Assembly (NCBI RefSeq): GCF_004801295.1
Contig: NZ_SSOC01000004.1
Location: forward strand, 248,001-312,000
DNA: 64,000 bases
Direction of reading: 5' to 3'
From: Pseudothauera nasutitermitis
GTDB taxonomy: Bacteria > Pseudomonadota > Gammaproteobacteria > Burkholderiales > Rhodocyclaceae
Below the pieces are notes generated by a model. That model was not told where the DNA came from, did no database searches, and was given only the letters and a program-made list of their open reading frames with translations. This document shows, one piece after another, positions 5,449 to 41,923 of this stretch. A program made the translations under genes and the position numbers. Position 1 is the first letter of the stretch. Each line of letters starts with the position of its first letter.

Positions 5449-5841
5449 TCAGATATCGTTCATCCGTTTCAGATGCGCGGCCAGCGCCGAATCCATGGTG
5501 CTCAGGTGCAGGTCGAACCATCCCGGCAGGCTTTCGCACACGTAGGCGCGCGCCAGTTGCAGACGGCCGGCCTGCACGCTGCGGTTGAAGGCCATGAGTT
5601 CGCCGAGCACGCGCTGGTGTTCGTTGGTGTGCTCGCCGATGGCCGGGAAGCGGGTGGCGCGCATGCGGGCGTCTTCGGCGGCGAAATGCGCGCGGGTGTG
5701 TTCGAACAGTTCGGCGTACAGCGCGGGGAAATGTTCGTTGTCGGCCGTGGCCAGCGCGGCGGCCAGGGCGACGAATTCGCGGTGGGTGTCGTCCATTTCC
5801 GCCACGCCGAGGGTGTGGCGGTCTTCCTGGAAGGTAATCAT
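5449..5841 (-). CDS. Bacteriohemerythrin, second gene of a nif-type operon
   Basis: The product has 130 residues: a single hemerythrin domain binding a di-iron O2 site. Ligand motifs are visible in order: DDTHREF, EHTRAHFAAED, GEHTNEHQR and LHLSTMD. The ATG overlaps the stop of the upstream SIR2-like gene (ATGA), so the two are translationally coupled. Bacteriohemerythrins bind O2 and are thought to deliver or buffer it in microaerobes. The operon promoter is of sigma-54/NifA type, which suggests a role in protecting nitrogenase from oxygen or supplying O2 to respiration (inference). Confidence 0.9.
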   Translation of the reverse strand: MITFQEDRHTLGVAEMDDTHREFVALAAALATADNEHFPALYAELFEHTRAHFAAEDARMRATRFPAIGEHTNEHQRVLGELMAFNRSVQAGRLQLARAYVCESLPGWFDLHLSTMDSALAAHLKRMNDI

Positions 5842-6686
5842 GCACAGGCCGCCGGTTCGGGCAGGCCGGCGAGTTCGCGCACGTCGGCTTCCACCAGGGT
5901 GAGGCCGAGGCGGGCGCAGAAGCGGCGCTCCTTGTCGTTGGGCTCGGCGATCAGCGCCCAGCCTGCGGGTTCGGCGGCGCCGAAGATGAAGTCGGAGAGC
6001 AGCATGCGCGTGGTGTCGCGGTTGAGCCGCGTGCCAGCCACCAGGTACTTGAGGCCCTTGCGGCGTTCCTTGAGGAAGGGCGGGATGGCGAAGCCGCCCA
6101 TCAGTTCGGTGATGTAGTCGACGTAGTCGGCGTCGGAGGCGATCCATTGCGGCACCGGCCACGGCGTGCCACAGGGCTTGAACAGCACCGGGGCGGCGGG
6201 GTCGATGCCGTCGTCGGTGGTTTCCGCGCCGTAATCCTGGCCGTCGTGGCGGTAGAGCCGGTAGCGCAGGCCGCTGTTGATGCGCGCGGTGCCGACGATG
6301 AGGGTGTGCGGGCGTTGGGCGTAGCGTTTCTGCAGGCCAGTGTCGCGGTTCAGGTCGATGAGATAGGGCAGTTCCAGCCCGGCCAGCCAGCGGTGCACGC
6401 CGGCCTCGCTCCAGGCGTCGTCGGCGTAGATGCGCTCCAGCGCGCGATTGACCGCACTGCGCCCGCGCTTGAGTTCGATGTTCATCGCTGCGCGGGGGAA
6501 TTCGTACATCAGCCGGGGGGCCATGGGCTGGCCGTTGTTGAGCGCGAGGATGAGTTCGTCGCTGCTGGCGGGGATCTTCTGCCCGGTGTCGCGGTGGGTG
6601 ACGTCGGCCAGCGTGTCGGCGCCCAGAAAGGGCACGACCGTGCCGGCGGCGAGTCCGGTACGGATTTCGTCCAGGACGGTTTGCAT
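5838..6686 (-). CDS. SIR2-like domain protein, nif-regulated
   Basis: The product has 282 residues; ACAGGAG precedes the ATG at 6686. The N-terminus VVPFLGADTL resembles the nucleotide-binding start of SIR2_2-type proteins (usually PFLGAGxS). A mid-protein KPCGTPWP...SDADYVDYI matches the region that normally reads KxHG...DY. YLVAGTRLNRDTTRML resembles the C-terminal SIR2 loop. SIR2-family enzymes bind NAD+ as deacylases or NAD+ hydrolases. The usual catalytic His position reads Cys and the GAG motif reads GAD, so activity is uncertain. It is the first gene of an operon with a hemerythrin and has a -24/-12 promoter. Fold assignment is moderate; function is unknown. Confidence 0.7.
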   Translation of the reverse strand: MQTVLDEIRTGLAAGTVVPFLGADTLADVTHRDTGQKIPASSDELILALNNGQPMAPRLMYEFPRAAMNIELKRGRSAVNRALERIYADDAWSEAGVHRWLAGLELPYLIDLNRDTGLQKRYAQRPHTLIVGTARINSGLRYRLYRHDGQDYGAETTDDGIDPAAPVLFKPCGTPWPVPQWIASDADYVDYITELMGGFAIPPFLKERRKGLKYLVAGTRLNRDTTRMLLSDFIFGAAEPAGWALIAEPNDKERRFCARLGLTLVEADVRELAGLPEPAACA

Positions 6687-6728
6687 GGCGGCTCTCCTGT
6701 CGGATGGGCGGGGTGTACCGCGTTTTCC

Positions 6729-6743
6729 GCAAGAAAGGTGCCA
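6729..6743 (-). promoter_or_regulatory. Sigma-54 -24/-12 promoter of the SIR2-like/hemerythrin operon
   Basis: Read on the minus strand the site is TGGCAC-CTTTC-TTGC, an exact match to TGGCAC-N5-TTGC. It lies 43 bases upstream of the SIR2-like ATG and downstream of a NifA-type site, in the correct orientation. Confidence 0.85.
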
Positions 6744-6809
6744 TGCCGGCCGTATGCGCGCCGCGCCCCTGCCACGGCGCTCCGGCGGTAGCAGGTGCCG
6801 GTGCAAGGC

Positions 6810-6825
6810 TGTCGCCTTTGCGACA
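6810..6825. promoter_or_regulatory. NifA upstream activator sequence (TGT-N10-ACA)
   Basis: TGTCGCCTTTGCGACA fits TGT-N10-ACA and is a perfect dyad (TGTCGC/GCGACA). It lies about 67-80 bp upstream of the minus-strand -24 element, a typical NifA spacing. It could also act on the rightward PAS gene, but I see no good -24/-12 there. Confidence 0.8.
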
Positions 6826-6934
6826 AATACGACATTAGAGCTAAATTTCGGTCGCGCGGTGTCGATATGCTGGCATCGGCATTCGGTGAACAGAGCGGGC
6901 CACGGGTGTGGCCGCCTGCACAGCGGGGTACGGC

Positions 6935-7459
6935 GTGAAGAACAAGAACATCGTGGTGACCGGGCGTGAGGTGAAGCTCCACCCGGACGAGCAGATCATC
7001 AGCAAGACCGACCTCGCGGGGCGGCTGACGTACGCCAACCGCGCGTTCATGCGCGTGGCGGACTATGCCGAGCCGGATTTGCTGGGGGTGCAGCACAACA
7101 TCGTGCGCCACCCGGACATGCCGCGCGGGGTGTACCAGATGATGTGGGAAACCCTGAAGGCCGGAAACGAGTTCTTCGGCTTCGTGAAGAATCTGACCGC
7201 CAACGGCGATCATTACTGGGTGTTCGCCAACGTCACCCCCGACCGGGATCTGGGCGGCGAGCCAGTGGGCTATTACTCGGTGCGCCGTATTCCGTCGGTG
7301 CGCGGCGTGCAGGTGGCCAGCGCGCTGTACGCCGAAATGGTCGCCGCCGAGCGCCAGGCCGGTCCGGCGCGCGCCATGGAGGCCTCGCGCGCGCTGCTCG
7401 CCCAGCGCCTGGGCGGGGAATCGTACGAGCGCTTCGTGCTCGCACTGCAACTGGGTTGA
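6935..7459 (+). CDS. Aer-type PAS domain protein (CetB-like redox sensor)
   Basis: The product has 174 residues and no membrane segment. Residues about 8-125 are an Aer-type PAS domain that should bind [20 protein letters not shown], then [15 protein letters not shown] and [13 protein letters not shown]. The Arg, His and Asp of VRHPDMP correspond to the FAD-contact loop of E. coli Aer. The GTG start at 6935 begins the conserved domain, with GGGGT upstream. It ends ten bases before a chemoreceptor gene that lacks its own sensory domain. The pair looks like a split energy-taxis receptor, as in Campylobacter CetB/CetA. Confidence 0.88.
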
Positions 7460-7469
7460 GGAACGCGCC

Positions 7470-8972
7470 ATGCCGCCCGTCGTGGATTCCGAACTGCATC
7501 ATCCCGCGCACCACCAGAGCCACCATGCGCTGTTCCTGTCGCGCCGCATGCTGGTGCTGTGCTGCGTGTTCTGCGCCATCACCATCGCGCTGGCGGTGAG
7601 CGAGGCCGTGCGCAACGGCTTCTACTACAGCCATGCGCTGTTTCCGCTGGTTTCGGTGGTGTTCGCGGTGTTCGCCTACCAGCAGTTCCACCGCCCGCTG
7701 CACACCCTGGGTTCGATGCGCGCGGTGCTGCGCGAGGCGCGCCGGGGCCGCCTGCACAAGCGCATCACGCGCACCGCCAAGCTCGGCGAGGTGGGCCAGG
7801 TGGCCTGGGAACTCAACGAGATGCTCGATCTGGTGGAGACCTACTTCAAGGAGGTGTCCACCTGCTTCGCGCGCGCGGCCAAGGGCGAGTACCACCGCCG
7901 CGCGCTCGACGGCGCCATGCCGGGGCAGTTCGCCGAATCCATGCACCGCATCAACGAAGCCTTGCAGGCCATGGAGGACAACGCCCACTACATCGCGCGC
8001 AACCGCCTCAGTTCCGGCATGCACGGGCTCAATATGAGCAAGCTGCTGGGCAATCTGCAGGGCAACCAGTCCGACCTGAGCACGGTGAGCCGCGAGATGG
8101 ACGAGGTGACCCAGATCGCCGACGACAACCTGGTGGCTGCGCGCGAAAGCCGGCAGACCGCCGAGGAGATCAGCGGCGCGTTGGAGAACATCGGTACGCG
8201 CATGGAGGAAATGCGCCTGGCCGCCGAGGAACTGGGCGAGGCCAGCCGGCAGATCGACCGCACCATCCTGATCATCGCGGAGATTTCCGACCAGACTAAC
8301 CTGCTGGCGCTCAACGCCGCCATCGAGGCTGCGCGCGCCGGCGAGCACGGCCGGGGCTTCGCGGTGGTGGCCGACGAGGTGCGCAAGCTGGCCGAGCGTA
8401 CCAAGAGCGCGGCCAGCGAGGTGGGCGGCATCATCGAGGGGCTGCGCGGGCGCGTCGACGGCATGATCGGCCAGACCGGACAGGCCAGCGAACTGTCTTC
8501 CGCCGCTGCCGGGCGCGTCACCGATTTCCGCGCGCGCTTCCAACGTCTGGCCGATTCTTCCGAACGCACCCTGCAATTGCTCGACCGCGCCAAGGATGTC
8601 TCCGACGCCTCGCTGGCCAAGCTGGATCACGTGCTCTACATGCAGAACGCCTACATGGCGATCGAGCGCAACGGCGAGGGCGACGAAGCCGGCCGCGCGG
8701 CGCAGAGTGCGCAGGATGCCGAACTGGGGCGCTGGTACCTGCACGGTACCGGACACACGCGTTTCGGTGCCACCGCCGCGTTCCGCCGCATCGCCAAGCC
8801 CAACGAGCGCGTGCACGAACGCGTGCACGAAGTGCTCGGCCTGCTCGGGCAGAACTGGGAGAACGATCCGGCGCTGTGCGAGCGCATGGTGGCGGCGATG
8901 CGCGAGGCCGAGGCGGCGAGCAGCGAGGTGCTGGCGTCCATCGACGCCATGGTGGCCGAGCGCCACGGTTGA
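7470..8972 (+). CDS. Methyl-accepting chemotaxis protein with degenerate CZB domain (CetA-like)
   Basis: The product has 500 residues. Two membrane segments (about 27-45 and 52-70) flank a very short loop, so there is no periplasmic ligand domain. HAMP-like sequence follows, then the signalling hairpin tip ([40 protein letters not shown]). The C-terminus from [11 protein letters not shown] resembles the zinc-binding CZB domain (LGRWY, ERVHE). The Cys normally two residues before LGRW is Ala, and the expected PH reads PN, so two zinc ligands look missing. It probably takes its sensory input from the PAS protein encoded just upstream. Confidence 0.9.
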
Positions 8973-9003: not shown

Positions 9004-9915
9004 TCAATCCACCCGGCGCACGGCGGCCACGCCGCCGATCACTAGGTATTCGTCCTCGCCCTGCAGGCGGCCGGGCAGCAGGCGGGAGTGGGCGAGGATC
9101 TTCGCGGCGGGTACCGCGCATTCCAGCACCCGGTCGCCGAATTCGCCGGCGCGTTCGCGGCTGGCGGAAAACGAACTCAGATTGTTCAGCACCACCACCA
9201 GGCGGCCGTCCGCCAGGCGCTCCAGCGGCGCCAGCGTGTCGCGTCCGGAAACGCCCCGGTACAGCGTGAGGTGGCGGCGCGCGTCGGGCTGGCGCGCCAG
9301 TTCGTACTGCGCATAGGCGTACAGCAGGTCTACCTGGGCTTCCAGCGCGCCGGTGGCATACAGGCCGGCGGCGCGCTCGCGTTCGAAGGCCGCGCGCGCC
9401 GGGCAGTCGGCGTCACCCAGCGGCGCGCGGTGAAAACCGGTGAGCAGGCCGAAGCGCGATTCCACCCAGCCTTTCAGCACGGCGCCCTCGCGTCCTTCCG
9501 AATCGAACAGCCAGCCGCGCAGCAGGCGCAGGTAGTCCAGCCGGCTGCGGTCGATGCGCGCGCCTTCGGTCAGGCCCTGCGCGGCAGCGTCGCCGAGCAG
9601 GAAGTGGGCGGCCATGTACTGCATGAACAGCTGGGCGCGCGTTGTCGCATCGCCGACAACCGACAGATGCTCGAACAGGGCATGGTGCAGCGGCAGCACG
9701 CCGTCCAGTTCCAGTTCCGCCGGGGCGAGCTGGAAGGCCAGGCTGGCCAGGGCTTCGGCCGGCAGATTGCAGCGGTTGTAGGACAGGCGGGCGGCAGGCG
9801 GGGCGCTGAGCCGGGCGAGTTCGGGGGGAATGTCCGTGGCCCGACAAATTGTAGGGGCTTTGTCGCACGCGTCGTGCGCGCAGAGGGCTTGCGGTGCCCC
9901 GCCAAATGTATTCAT
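9004..9915 (-). CDS. draT: NAD(+)-dinitrogen-reductase ADP-D-ribosyltransferase
   Basis: The product has 303 residues, close to known DraT length. DraT moves ADP-ribose from NAD+ to an Arg of NifH and switches nitrogenase off after ammonium or energy downshift. Recognisable stretches are SYNRCNLPAEALASLAFQ, LHHALFEHL, LTLYRGVSG and VVVLNNLSSFSASRERA. The gene is divergent from nifH, its usual substrate. DraG, the reversing hydrolase, is not in the window. The first 30 codons contain the NifA site that serves nifH. Confidence 0.92.
   Translation of the reverse strand: MNTFGGAPQALCAHDACDKAPTICRATDIPPELARLSAPPAARLSYNRCNLPAEALASLAFQLAPAELELDGVLPLHHALFEHLSVVGDATTRAQLFMQYMAAHFLLGDAAAQGLTEGARIDRSRLDYLRLLRGWLFDSEGREGAVLKGWVESRFGLLTGFHRAPLGDADCPARAAFERERAAGLYATGALEAQVDLLYAYAQYELARQPDARRHLTLYRGVSGRDTLAPLERLADGRLVVVLNNLSSFSASRERAGEFGDRVLECAVPAAKILAHSRLLPGRLQGEDEYLVIGGVAAVRRVD
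9831..9846. promoter_or_regulatory. NifA upstream activator sequence for nifH
   Basis: TGTCCGTGGCCCGACA fits TGT-N10-ACA. It is about 100 bp upstream of the nifH -24 element and lies inside the 5' coding part of divergent draT. Confidence 0.82.
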
Positions 9916-9944: not shown

Positions 9945-9959
9945 TGGCACAGTCCTTGC
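9945..9959 (+). promoter_or_regulatory. Sigma-54 -24/-12 promoter of nifHDK
   Basis: TGGCAC-AGTCC-TTGC is an exact consensus site, 71 bases upstream of the nifH ATG. AAGGAGT precedes the start codon as ribosome binding site. Confidence 0.93.
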
Positions 9960-25068: not shown

Positions 25069-25530
25069 TCAGCGGAACAGGCGGGTGAGCGAACGGGCGA
25101 GCCAGCCTTCCTTGGCGTCGTCCCCGGCCGCGTTCTGCATTTCTTCCGGCTTCAACAAACTGACGTAGTCGGCGTCTTCATGCCGGATGTGGCTGATCAG
25201 CCAGGTGCTCAGGAGCCTGTGGATGTCGCCGGCGACGTCCTCACCGGCGCGGAAGCGCTGCAGATATTCATTCACCCGGCGCACGAAAAGTTCGTGCACC
25301 CGCTTGTGTGCCTTGACGAAAGGGTAGCCGGCTTCCTCCATCAGGCTTTCCTCGAAGATGAAATGCGACAGCGTGTAGTCGACCAGTTCGTCGAGCACCT
25401 TGCCGACCGCGGTGCGATCCAGGGTCTGCTGCGCGCCTTCCAGCCGGTTGATGTAATCGACGATGCGCCGGTGTTGCTGGTCGATGACGGCGATCCCGGT
25501 GTCGAGATCGATGGTCCAGGCAATGGCCAT
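25069..25530 (-). CDS. Bacteriohemerythrin
   Basis: The product has 153 residues with hemerythrin ligands VIDQQHRRIVDYIN, HFIFEESLM, HKRVHELF and HIRHEDADY. The ATG at 25530 is preferred to a GTG at 25551 because the conserved WTIDLDTGI start follows directly. It binds O2 at a di-iron centre. It is convergent with recD, divergent from an XRE regulator, and unlike the first hemerythrin in the window has no visible nif-type promoter. Confidence 0.9.
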   Translation of the reverse strand: MAIAWTIDLDTGIAVIDQQHRRIVDYINRLEGAQQTLDRTAVGKVLDELVDYTLSHFIFEESLMEEAGYPFVKAHKRVHELFVRRVNEYLQRFRAGEDVAGDIHRLLSTWLISHIRHEDADYVSLLKPEEMQNAAGDDAKEGWLARSLTRLFR

Positions 25531-25610
25531 GCGTGCTTCTCCATATCTCACCGCAAATGGATGGCGGGCTCATGTCGCTCGCCTTTTCGCGGTTTCCTTT
25601 CAGGAGATAT

Positions 25611-27396: not shown

Positions 27397-27422
27397 CGTT
27401 GTGTTGTTGCCTACATATAATG
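27397..27422 (-). promoter_or_regulatory. Candidate ModE box upstream of modG
   Basis: CGTTGT followed by GCCTACATATAATG closely resembles the site at 31311-31336 and, as I recall it, the E. coli modA operator (CGTTAT...GCCTACATAACG). It ends 43 bases before modG. Confidence 0.65.
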
Positions 27423-27519
27423 TCGGCCACGCGTCGTGCGGCGATGCGTGGATTCTAGTGGCGAGCGTTGTGACATCTCAACCATAGCGCGGCATCCGGC
27501 GCGCGCAGAGTGGGCACGA

Positions 27520-27545
27520 AAATCGCTATATAAGCACATAAATAA
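27520..27545 (+). promoter_or_regulatory. Candidate second-type Mo box upstream of modD
   Basis: TCGCTATATA followed after a few bases by ATAAATA matches the site upstream of modE (31413-31439). It lies 24 bases before the modD ATG. Confidence 0.55.
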
Positions 27546-27568
27546 AAATGGACGCACGAGGAGGTGCG

Positions 27569-31207: not shown

Positions 31208-31310
31208 GGCGGGTTTTCCGGGAGATGGCCGGGCCATTGCAAACGCCATGCCGCGCGTTCTGCCCGCGCGGCCGGGCGGTGCGCGGCTGCCGGCTGTCGC
31301 GATGGTGACA

Positions 31311-31336
31311 CGTTGTAGTGTTGACTACATATATTT
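31311..31336 (-). promoter_or_regulatory. Candidate ModE box upstream of modC
   Basis: It shares CGTTGT, a TTG and CTACATATA at the same spacing with the modG site (27397-27422). It also contains the perfect dyad TGTAGT-GTTG-ACTACA (31314-31329). Confidence 0.65.
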
Positions 31337-31412
31337 GTTCGAGCATCTTCCGTCTGTCACCCATGCTTTTCCGCGGAAGTCCGGCCGGTTTCGGACGGCA
31401 GCCGTGGCATGG

Positions 31413-31439
31413 TTTTCGCTATATACAAGCAAATATACC
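31413..31439 (+). promoter_or_regulatory. Candidate second-type Mo box upstream of modE
   Basis: TCGCTATATA followed by AAATATACC matches the site upstream of modD. It ends just before the modE ribosome binding site (AGGAA), so protein bound here would block modE expression. Confidence 0.6.
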
Positions 31440-39606: not shown

Positions 39607-41649
39607 TCAGAACTGATAGCGCGTGGACAGCAGGAAGGCGCGCCCGGCCTGCGGGTAGCCGATGGCCACCGCGTAGTCCTTGTCGAGCAGGTTGCGCCCG
39701 GCCAGCGAGACGTCCCAGTCGTCGCTGAGCCGGTATTCCAGCTTCAGGTTCAGCAAGGTGTAGCGGTCGCTGCGCGCGAAACCGCCGCCCAGCGCGGTGG
39801 GCACCGAAGACCAGCGGGCGCTGGCGTACTCCACCGAGGGGATGGCGGTGAAGCGCCCGGTCGGCTTCCACTTGCCGTACAGGAAGGCCTGGTGGCGCGG
39901 GGTGGTGGTCAGGCGCAGGGCGCGGTTGTTGGGATCGTGCAGTTCGGCATCGGTATAGGTGTAGTTGCCGCCGAGCTCCAGCGTGTTGCCGACCAGTGCG
40001 GTGATGGCCAGTTCGATGCCCTTGAAGGTGGCCTTGCCGACGTTCTGGTTCTGGTTTTCGTTGTTCTCGATGATGCCGTTGCCGTTCAGATCCACCGGAA
40101 CGGACTGGATCAGATCCTTGACCTTGCTGTGGAACAGCGCGGCGCTGCCGCGCACGCCGGGTGCCAGGCTGTCCTCGATGCCCAGTTCGAGGTTGAGCGC
40201 CTCCTCGGGGTCGAGATAGGGATTGGAAGAGGCATTGCCGAAGCGGCTGCTGAAGCGTTCGAACACGGTGGGGAAGCGGGTGCGCTGCGAGGCGGAGAAG
40301 TGCGCCTTGCCGCCTTCGCGGTAGCGCCAGATGGCCGCGCCCTGGTAGTTCCAGGCGTCGTTGTTGGCCACGCGGTGCTCGAACAGCGTGTTGTTGGCGA
40401 AATCCTCGGCCTTCTTCGTCTTGCGGCGGTCGCGGCTGATGCCGGCCACCAGATCGAAATCCGGCGTCAGCTGCCAGGTGTCTTCCAGCGCCAGGGACCA
40501 CACGGATTCGATGTTCTCGTGCTTCGGTTCGCTGACCCCGGTGTGCCGGGTGATTTCCCACTCGGTGTGCTGGTCGCGGCGGTAATGCAGCGCGCCCTTC
40601 AGGGTGTGACCGTCGAACTGGCGGGTGCCCAGTTCGATGCTGCCGCCGTAGGCCTCGTCGTCGTAGTTGCTGCGGAAGCTCTGGCCGTTGTTCAGGTTGT
40701 TGCGCACCAGCGCGTTGTCGAAGGTGTTGTAGTACAGCCGGGTCTTCACATAGCTCTTGCTGCCCAGTTCGGTGTGCGACAGCCAGTACAGGCTGGAGGT
40801 GTCCCACATCGGCCATTCCCACCACCAGGAATCCGTGTCGACGGTGGACGCGGACTGGGTTTTCTCGCCGCTCTGCTTGACGAAACTGAGCGAATACTCG
40901 TCGGTGGCATTGGGCGTGAAACCGACCTTCAGACTGGTGCGCCAGTCGCGCTTGGCGCTGTTGTCGCGCTTGCCGCCGTCTTCCAGGCTGGTCGGCTTGA
41001 AATCGCCGGACAGGCGCCACTGGTCGATGTCGCGCTGCTGGGCGCTGGCCTGCCAGTACCACTGCTCCTGCTTGCCGCCGAGGTTGGCGTAGGCCGTATA
41101 GCCGTCGTACTGCCCCTTGCGCCCCAGGTTGGCGGTGGCGCGCACTTCGGCCTCGAAGGGCTTGACCGGCTTGCGCGTCACCAAGTTGATCGCTCCGCCC
41201 ATGCCGTCCGGCCCGTTGAGCACCGACACATAGCCCTTGGAAACCTGGATTTCCGCCAGATCCGGGGTCAGGAAACGGTCGAAGTCGATGCGGTTGTCGG
41301 CGGGCAGGTACAGGCGGATGCCGTCCATCATCAGCGGTACGCGCCAGCCGCTGAAGCCGCGCACGCTGATCTCCGCTTCGTTGCGCCGGCCGCTGCCGGG
41401 GGTGGTGATCACCCCGGGCATGATGTCGAGCGCCTCGGTCAGGCCGTCGCGGCTGAAGTCCCACAACTGATCGCGGTCCAGCGTCGCGGCGCCCAGCGGC
41501 GTGCCGGTGTCGTGCTGGCCGGTGACGGTGATCTGCCCGAGGGTGAACACCCGGTCGGTGTCGGCGGCGGAAGCGCCCGGTGGCTGGAGTGCGGCACAGA
41601 GCGCGATCGCCAGGGTGTGGCGGCGCAAGGGTTTGCGGAAGATTCTCAT
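39607..41649 (-). CDS. TonB-dependent receptor, possible molybdenum-regulon member
   Basis: The product has 680 residues. A signal peptide ends at GASAAD, followed by a TonB box-like ITVTGQHD, a plug (LTEALDIMPGVITTPGSG, ISVRGFSGWRVPLMMDGI, LNGPDGMGGAINLVTRKP) and a barrel ending LLSTRYQF. There is no STN domain. It imports an unidentified ligand across the outer membrane. Position beside the mod genes and an AT-rich ModE-like site at 41703-41730 suggest a molybdate- or molybdophore-related substrate (inference). Iron-siderophore uptake is the alternative. Confidence 0.9.
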   Translation of the reverse strand: MRIFRKPLRRHTLAIALCAALQPPGASAADTDRVFTLGQITVTGQHDTGTPLGAATLDRDQLWDFSRDGLTEALDIMPGVITTPGSGRRNEAEISVRGFSGWRVPLMMDGIRLYLPADNRIDFDRFLTPDLAEIQVSKGYVSVLNGPDGMGGAINLVTRKPVKPFEAEVRATANLGRKGQYDGYTAYANLGGKQEQWYWQASAQQRDIDQWRLSGDFKPTSLEDGGKRDNSAKRDWRTSLKVGFTPNATDEYSLSFVKQSGEKTQSASTVDTDSWWWEWPMWDTSSLYWLSHTELGSKSYVKTRLYYNTFDNALVRNNLNNGQSFRSNYDDEAYGGSIELGTRQFDGHTLKGALHYRRDQHTEWEITRHTGVSEPKHENIESVWSLALEDTWQLTPDFDLVAGISRDRRKTKKAEDFANNTLFEHRVANNDAWNYQGAAIWRYREGGKAHFSASQRTRFPTVFERFSSRFGNASSNPYLDPEEALNLELGIEDSLAPGVRGSAALFHSKVKDLIQSVPVDLNGNGIIENNENQNQNVGKATFKGIELAITALVGNTLELGGNYTYTDAELHDPNNRALRLTTTPRHQAFLYGKWKPTGRFTAIPSVEYASARWSSVPTALGGGFARSDRYTLLNLKLEYRLSDDWDVSLAGRNLLDKDYAVAIGYPQAGRAFLLSTRYQF

Positions 41650-41702
41650 TGGATTCTCCAGGATTCGTGGGGATGAAACGCCCGGGGGCGATTCCCTGGA
41701 GC

Positions 41703-41730
41703 AATATATATACCAAAGTAAATAATAAAA
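41703..41730 (-). promoter_or_regulatory. AT-rich site upstream of the TonB receptor, similar to the Mo boxes
   Basis: ATATATATACC...GTAAATAATA resembles the TATATA-N5/7-AAATA layout upstream of modD and modE. It lies 54 bases before the receptor ATG. A plain AT-rich promoter is the alternative. Confidence 0.4.
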
Positions 41731-41805
41731 ACATGGGTGCTGTTGCCGTCCGCCGCTGCTGTTCATCCATGTTTGTCCCGTAATTCGGGATTTCTGCATG
41801 TTTCG

Positions 41806-41825
41806 TTATTTACATGAGTGAATAA
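41806..41825. promoter_or_regulatory. Near-perfect inverted repeat between the TonB receptor and hydrolase genes
   Basis: TTATTTAC-ATGA-GTGAATAA is a dyad with one mismatch in an AT-rich patch of an otherwise GC-rich region. A regulator-binding site is possible; the regulator is unknown. Confidence 0.4.
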
Positions 41826-41923
41826 ATTGTGGGAAAAACGACAGGGCGCACGGCCGCTCTTCGGGCGTCGTGGCCGCGGGATGCGCTAAGATGTGCGCCG
41901 TCCTTCGTATCGGGCTTGCCGCC

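Follow-up and report, generated by a model that had tools for sequence, protein, structure and literature searches.

A NifA/sigma-54-type operon that joins a SIR2-fold PnfA homologue to a bacteriohemerythrin

The O2 tolerance of nitrogenase is one of the chief hurdles in efforts to transfer nitrogen fixation to new hosts by engineering. In the 64-kb stretch of DNA analysed here (the window), a first-pass annotation had drawn attention to a small leftward operon, close to draT and nifH, that codes for a SIR2-like protein and a putative O2-binding protein. This raises the question of whether the operon belongs to the nif regulon and, if so, what such a pair of proteins would do for nitrogenase. 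In the reading that we prefer, with a probability of about two in three, the operon is activated by NifA and sigma-54, its first product is a pseudoenzyme of the PnfA family that keeps nitrogenase active during respiration, and the hemerythrin binds O2 beside it, a mechanism that we infer.

Promoter, activator site and conservation of the wiring

The first gene of the operon, the pnfA homologue (5838-6686, minus strand, ATG at 6686), codes for a SIR2-fold protein of 282 aa, and the second (5449-5841, minus strand) for a bacteriohemerythrin-like protein of 130 aa recognized by PF01814 and TIGR02481; an ATGA overlap joins the stop of the former to the start of the latter. By position, the second gene would be equivalent to dcrH1 of Azoarcus BH72, a name that denotes a hemerythrin protein. 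A Shine-Dalgarno-like AGGAGAG (6692-6698, minus strand) precedes the ATG of the 282-aa gene. Further upstream are a sigma-54 -24/-12 promoter, TGGCACCTTTCTTGC (6729-6743, minus strand), identified by pattern scan and by its conservation in aligned upstream regions, and a near-palindromic NifA upstream activator site of the TGT-N10-ACA type, TGTCGCCTTTGCGACA (6810-6825, no strand), found by pattern scan and separated from the promoter by 67 bases. The first-pass annotation had claimed both an exact promoter match and an activator site in the right orientation and spacing, and both are present. If the transcript starts about 12 bases beyond the -12 element, its leader would be about 30 nt long.

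Taken singly, either kind of site is weak evidence. The window holds two exact -24/-12 matches, against a mean of 0.27 in 100 shuffles (4 of which reach two), and five matches with at most one mismatch, which is no excess over the shuffled mean of 7.65; TGT-N10-ACA occurs 15 times, with a mean of 4.9 expected. An exact -24/-12 site with a TGT-N10-ACA 30-150 bases upstream is found in the window only at the operon promoter and at the nifH promoter (9945-9959), and any such pair appeared in 2 of 200 Markov-randomised windows; the combination at the operon is rare, and its site is confirmed as real. Order, spacing and orientation fit a NifA/sigma-54 regulon, and both elements are kept in relatives.

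Similar sites were seen elsewhere in the window. A TGT-N10-ACA accompanied by a -24/-12-like site with two mismatches lies by modD (27400-27526; modD at 27548) and again at 31239-31419, by a ModE-like regulator (31409) and an ABC ATPase gene divergent from it, the sites at these last two genes both overlapping predicted starts. An input of NifA to molybdate uptake through the mod-gene sites is possible. At 41701-41843, two TGT-N10-ACA sites stand 84 and 113 bases from TGGTATATATATTGC on the minus strand, a sequence that falls early within an ORF of 730 aa (39607-41799).

For the comparison with relatives, 163 loci with operon gene 1 or a homologue were gathered from the window, 80 named contigs (the best 80 of 400 relatives among 435 candidate stretches), other genomes and six plasmid records. 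An ORF was obtained from 157 of them, and the 139 distinct proteins divide into 114 of subfamily I (at least 50% identity in the best tblastn segment, the window protein counted in) and 25 of subfamily II, the latter 21-27% identical to the window protein (23-29% by best tblastn segment). Across 16 aligned upstream regions of Thauera/Azoarcus type, in which L004 and L118 are identical, two islands of conservation stand out: the promoter, TGGCAYCnnTCTTGC, which does not vary, and the NifA site, which most rows retain (L005 and L010 deviate). Among 113 subfamily I loci, the window locus included, a -24/-12 site with at most one mismatch lies 35-110 bases upstream in 44 (100 shuffles: mean 0.46, maximum 2), a -24/-12-like site with at most two in 70 (mean 3.24, maximum 8), and TGT-N10-ACA at -220 to -90 in 53 (mean 2.2, maximum 6), although the loci are related and the counts are not independent events. 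An intragenic control gave 4 of 114 at the two-mismatch level; with three mismatches allowed, 87 of the 113 loci have an upstream site, a level that is less informative because the control then reaches 26 of 114. The same scan found neither -24/-12 (0/25) nor TGT-N10-ACA (0/25) upstream of subfamily II genes.

The regulation of homologues of the first gene has been studied in other diazotrophs. In Pseudomonas stutzeri A1501, pnfA (PST1325) has a -24/-12 element and a TGT-N10-ACA, and qRT-PCR in nifA and rpoN mutants indicated that its expression is NifA-sigma-54-dependent (PMC2820453). In BH72, azo0536 is among eight genes with predicted RpoN and NifA sites in a NifA-regulated list (PMC3916325). 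There, draT, azo0536 and dcrH1 have been proposed to share one mRNA, but under nitrogen fixation only the latter two were induced and draT was not, which suggested a secondary promoter (PMC8467165); the main text of a BH72 Tn-seq paper names neither azo0536 nor dcrH1. Conservation in our loci, together with these NifA/RpoN data, strongly supports the nif-regulon membership that had been proposed for the pnfA-hemerythrin operon. Its wiring is real and conserved, yet is already on record for a near relative, BH72.

Fold, chemistry and distribution of the PnfA family

PnfA of A1501 is a product of 31.7 kDa (31.2 kDa for the window protein) encoded divergently from nifH; the homologues that were found all come from diazotrophs, among them Azoarcus BH72 (55%) and Dechloromonas (54%), and a further subfamily shares 20% identity with it (PMC2820453). 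PST_1325 is given elsewhere as a SIR2 family protein (PMC11332353). From the homologue list, the split into two subfamilies, the nifH linkage, the mass and the SIR2 label, we infer that the window protein is a member of the PnfA family.

The "SIR2-like" label of the first-pass annotation corresponds to a Pfam match below threshold (PF13289, 20.2 bits, cut-off 24.5), and a PDB search with the single sequence returned two chance-level matches only, but the profile built from 34 members of the family finds KomC at E 4e-7 and ThsA at 5e-4. An AlphaFold2 model built with 60 sequences (mean pLDDT 92.6, pTM 0.91) has KomC, DSR2 and ThsA as its best Foldseek matches, with E from 5e-8 and TM of about 0.6. 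A predicted SIR2-type fold, that of the defence SIR2 NADases, is confirmed by these profile and structure comparisons.

Such a fold could belong to an active sirtuin, that is, an NAD+-dependent deacylase or NADase working on nitrogenase proteins, as has been proposed for the Zymomonas homologue ZMO1821, termed a likely deacetylase by its authors (PMC8600466). The Asn of a TTNYD-like motif, present in all 114 subfamily I proteins, would agree with this; however, it is replaced by Trp in 21 of the 25 subfamily II proteins, and the catalytic His is not conserved at either of the positions where it might be sought. His 146 of KomC (the PDB entry is titled H146N) sits in K-F-H-G, which by motif we read as K170-P-x-G173, with the catalytic His at position 172. 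Subfamily I has Met (70), Leu (27), Cys (16) or Thr (1) there and His in none of its 114 rows, and subfamily II has His in 3 of 25. HMMER placed the K-F-H-G stretch near position 147 instead, where 42 of 114 rows have a His; a conserved catalytic His was found neither at 172 nor near 147 in the alignment of 114 subfamily I and 25 subfamily II proteins. The GAGxS loop is altered as well, its Ser position being Leu26 in the window protein and Leu in 113 of the 114 subfamily I proteins. G22 is kept in 139/139.

We read the PnfA family as probably non-catalytic in the SIR2 sense, and the active sirtuin or NADase is disfavoured, to the point that we hold it very unlikely. The comparison also argues against the "deacetylase" label of the nif-linked ZMO1821, and the handling of NAD+ or redox state once imagined for the window protein is not supported, the fold being that of SIR2 but no catalytic His being conserved. 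A putative site is marked by H98 and H127, invariant in subfamily I (114/114), and by E71, R76, D115, P171, G173, D185, D187, P202, R209, R227 and E253, invariant in all 139 proteins.

Within the class sampled, the family is nearly confined to genomes that bear nifH. Of the 369 genomes of the class sample, 28 are carriers, 27 of them with a nifH match (E <= 1e-100); of the 32 genomes that have such a match, 27 carry the homologue and five do not. In the family sample (150 genomes), the homologue is carried by 58, and in 52 of these nifH exceeds the curated cut-off; of the 59 nifH genomes, 7 are without the homologue. Six carriers do not have a complete nifH. Partial nifH matches were found in two of these, G001 and G056, and draT in four, namely these two, G132 and G138. 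The profile of the 34-row alignment matched 17 genomes of the phylum sample (378 genomes), 14 with nifH and three without a nifH match at E <= 1e-100. Since 24 of the 38 nifH genomes in that sample do not have the homologue, its presence is by no means general outside the class.

The two subfamilies were never found in one genome, either among the 58 family-sample carriers (47 I, 11 II) or among the 28 class-sample carriers (19 I, 9 II), and a single change on the tree divides them. Distant homologues occur on 72 plasmid records. In the six examined (R. etli, R. tropici, Mesorhizobium, Bradyrhizobium, Methylococcus and Paraburkholderia), the gene is part of a nif cluster, directly after nifT or a few genes on, and in four rhizobial nif regions the subfamily II gene is the one next to nifT, the stretches covered showing no annotated draT.

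The hemerythrin partner, draT and the PAS-MCP pair

The product of the second gene scores above the cut-offs of PF01814 (34.0 bits, cut-off 25.3) and TIGR02481 (63.7, cut-off 51.75) and below that of NF033749 (63.1 vs 84 bits); a PDB search with its sequence gave nothing at 0.001. We take the diiron ligand positions from the hemerythrin family as H20, H52, E56, H71, H75, H112 and D117. The first six are present in all 62 pnfA-linked hemerythrins, the window's among them, and D117 in 61, the remaining row being a gap, and the window protein matches all seven ligands of a bacteriohemerythrin (H, H, E, H, H, H, D).

A same-strand diiron hemerythrin gene lies within 1.1 kb downstream of pnfA in 62 of the 108 subfamily I loci with enough flank, is absent there in 46, and was found in none of the 25 subfamily II loci. 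In 22 of the 62 it overlaps the pnfA stop by 1-7 bases, and one further row has a mis-called start. Mapped on a FastTree tree, the linkage changes 15 times (at least 26 in 200 label shuffles), so it must have been gained or lost repeatedly. With only 10 hemerythrin-domain matches in the host genome, the hemerythrin beside pnfA is unlikely to be a chance neighbour. Thus pnfA and hemerythrin form a recurrent gene pair, and the linkage that the first-pass annotation thought worth seeking in other diazotrophs does exist. A second bacteriohemerythrin gene (25069-25551; NF002007, 220 bits) lies near the molybdate gene cluster of the window.

As had been described, the operon is adjoined by draT (9004-9915, minus strand; PF07357, 303 bits), whose start codon is uncertain, the Pfam match opening at residue 47, and by two divergent genes assigned by domain search, for a PAS-domain protein (6908-7459, plus strand) and an MCP with a CZB domain (7470-8972, plus strand). 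The first-pass annotation had pointed to the PAS-MCP genes as an aerotaxis pair next to the operon, a link that the comparison does not support. Outside the pnfA operon, a sigma-28-like site for the pair, TAAA-N15-GTCGATAT (6842-6868, plus strand), has two mismatches to TAAA-N15-GCCGATAA, which we took as the sigma-28 consensus, and is one of three sites of such quality in the window. At the equivalent place in relatives the mismatches number one (L002), two (L004) and three (L117), and no nif-type promoter was seen for the pair. The site's presence in all four loci checked suggests that this chemotaxis pair belongs to the flagellar, not the nif, regulon. Of the 107 annotated loci, only the window, L002, L004 (the same as L118) and L117 have the pair between draT and pnfA, the usual order being nifHDK divergent from draT-pnfA-hemerythrin.

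The idea that the promoter arose after insertion of the PAS-MCP pair had parted pnfA from draT is ruled out, since loci in which draT is directly adjacent also have the site. With draT directly upstream, a -24/-12 site is found in 28 of 37 loci at up to three mismatches and in 21 at up to two; with draT further away, in 24 and 19 of 29; and without draT but with nifH within 700 bases, in 5 of 10 at either level. Neither of the window's two exact -24/-12 sites serves draT. The activator site of nifH (9831-9846) falls inside the predicted draT ORF.

Of the 114 subfamily I loci, 37 have draT upstream of pnfA at no more than 400 bases from the homology end, and 29 have it further upstream; none was seen in the available flank of the other 48, many of which are short. 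This frequent neighbourhood, the draT match in 53 of the 58 family-sample carriers and the SIR2 fold speak for a switch-off module, in which PnfA and the hemerythrin would act with DraT/DraG to sense NAD+ and O2 and so control ADP-ribosylation of the Fe protein. However, the association is not obligate, five of the 58 carriers being without a draT match, and the catalytic His is not conserved; moreover, A1501 shows a pnfA phenotype although DraT and DraG were reported as not found there (PMC2820453), and draT of BH72 was not induced alongside azo0536-dcrH1 (PMC8467165). The five carriers, A1501 and BH72 lead us to reject DraT as a necessary partner, and joint action with DraT, as supposed in the first-pass annotation, also sits poorly with the four rhizobial regions. 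We consider the switch-off module unlikely. No literature was found that links hemerythrin with draT and nitrogenase. In genome G000, second copies of draT and of a nifH-type gene at C3:642758-657437 suggest a second nitrogenase region, and a hemerythrin-domain match lies about 7 kb from this draT.

Proposed role and related systems

The published phenotype of PnfA bears on the role of the operon. At 0.5% O2, a non-polar pnfA mutant of A1501 retained 23% of nitrogenase activity, with nifH transcription unchanged, and under anaerobic conditions with nitrate its activity was lost; under anaerobic conditions without nitrate it equalled the wild type (PMC2820453). The last result is weakened as a sign of no effect without O2, because the activity of the wild type is itself much lower under those conditions (PMC2820453). 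In the authors' proposal, PnfA would serve in electron transfer or protect against O2 (PMC2820453), and since activity is also lost anaerobically with nitrate, the phenotype is compatible with both electron supply and protection from O2. Data from relatives support a nitrogenase-support or O2-protection role for the operon. Of the protection or switch-off once envisaged for it, support of nitrogenase with O2 present stands, through PnfA of P. stutzeri, and switch-off jointly with DraT does not.

PnfA might, more narrowly, be an electron-supply factor that aids electron transfer to nitrogenase in respiration, the hemerythrin being an incidental O2 buffer on a shared promoter. The defect of the A1501 mutant with O2 or nitrate as acceptor, and not anaerobically without nitrate, fits this idea, electron transfer is one of the options listed by the authors (PMC2820453), and the 46 loci without a downstream hemerythrin are in its favour. 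However, no conserved redox motif was found in the 114 subfamily I rows, the sole Cys present in more than 60 of them being Cys 257 (88/114), which is not general, and the frequent overlap of the hemerythrin gene with the pnfA stop (22/62) does not suggest an incidental partner. We regard this as possible but doubtful; it overlaps our preferred reading, which leaves the partner of PnfA open, and the odds of the two are not exclusive.

In the preferred reading, NifA and sigma-54 would switch on the pnfA-hemerythrin operon along with the nitrogen-fixation genes. PnfA would then act post-transcriptionally as a pseudoenzyme, without SIR2 chemistry, by binding a partner, either nitrogenase itself or a component that feeds it electrons, and so keeping nitrogenase active in the respiring cell. 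The small hemerythrin would bind O2 next to PnfA, as a buffer, a scavenger or an O2-dependent partner, and DraT would be a common neighbour rather than a required partner. Counting against this reading are the fully effective mutant of the M. loti homologue Msi351, the 46 subfamily I loci with no hemerythrin close downstream and the three phylum-sample carriers that gave no nifH match. More speculatively, and with considerable doubt on our part, a pseudoenzyme related to the branch of the SIR2 defence NADases may have been recruited to nitrogen fixation. Together with the hemerythrin it would form a complex that responds to O2 and, docked on nitrogenase or on the source of its reductant, sustains activity in respiring cells. 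If this is true, the docking complex would be a route of protection apart from Shethna-type conformational protection and from DraT/DraG.

It had also been stated that no function is described for such a pair. PnfA itself has a published mutant phenotype (PMC2820453), but none was found for the pnfA-hemerythrin pair as such among the literature matches listed, nor in the passages of a paper on iron oxidisers. Likewise, no biochemistry of any PnfA-family member was found among the matches listed; PMC5923616 also names pnfA. The SIR2 passages of PMC11227200 belong to an unrelated context and were set aside. New here are the fold relation to SIR2, the absence of a conserved catalytic His, the link to nifH in the class sample, the non-co-occurrence of the subfamilies and the pairing with hemerythrin. 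The comparison separates the pair from DraT, and this NifA-controlled two-gene unit, with its first gene in most nifH genomes of the class sample and a published low-O2 phenotype, is a tractable candidate.

The closest known systems are those of A1501 and BH72. PnfA of A1501, which we set beside the window protein by the description of PST1325, shares with it the NifA/sigma-54 promoter with TGT-N10-ACA, the nif linkage, a similar size and a second, distant subfamily. Unlike the window gene, it is divergent from nifH, with no draT reported and with a neighbour, PST1324, described merely as "conserved hypothetical"; SIR2 is unmentioned in the sections on pnfA (PMC2820453). The azo0536-dcrH1 pair of Azoarcus olearius BH72, likened to ours by gene order, has draT followed by the same two genes and predicted NifA/RpoN sites (PMC8467165, PMC3916325), whereas in the window the PAS-MCP pair comes between draT and pnfA.

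More distant are the nifT-linked SIR2 proteins of subfamily II, comprising Msi351, Rcc03262 and the rhizobial homologues, which like the window protein are encoded in nif operons. The sirtuin-like Msi351 of M. loti, in nifB-fdxN-nifZ-fixU-msi351, is probably of subfamily II by operon position; its mutant was fully effective (PMC3538637), so a PnfA-type protein is not universally needed. Rcc03262 of R. capsulatus, in the nifB1-rcc03265-nifZT-rcc03262 operon, was measured in the wild type and given as NF in a nifA double mutant (PMC6925177), and for Rhodovulum a SIR2-like gene is described in a legend as lying between nifT and nifX (PMC9412634). Msi351 and Rcc03262, related to the window protein by description, are NifA-controlled like the window operon (PMC3538637, PMC6925177). 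Unlike it, the nifT-linked genes have no promoter of their own (25 loci scanned) and no hemerythrin, and the Asn is mostly Trp. Finally, the defence SIR2 NADases KomC, DSR2 and ThsA share the predicted fold of the window protein, which differs from them in its lack of a conserved catalytic His, in having Leu26 for the Ser of GAGxS, in its single domain and in being encoded in a nif cluster.
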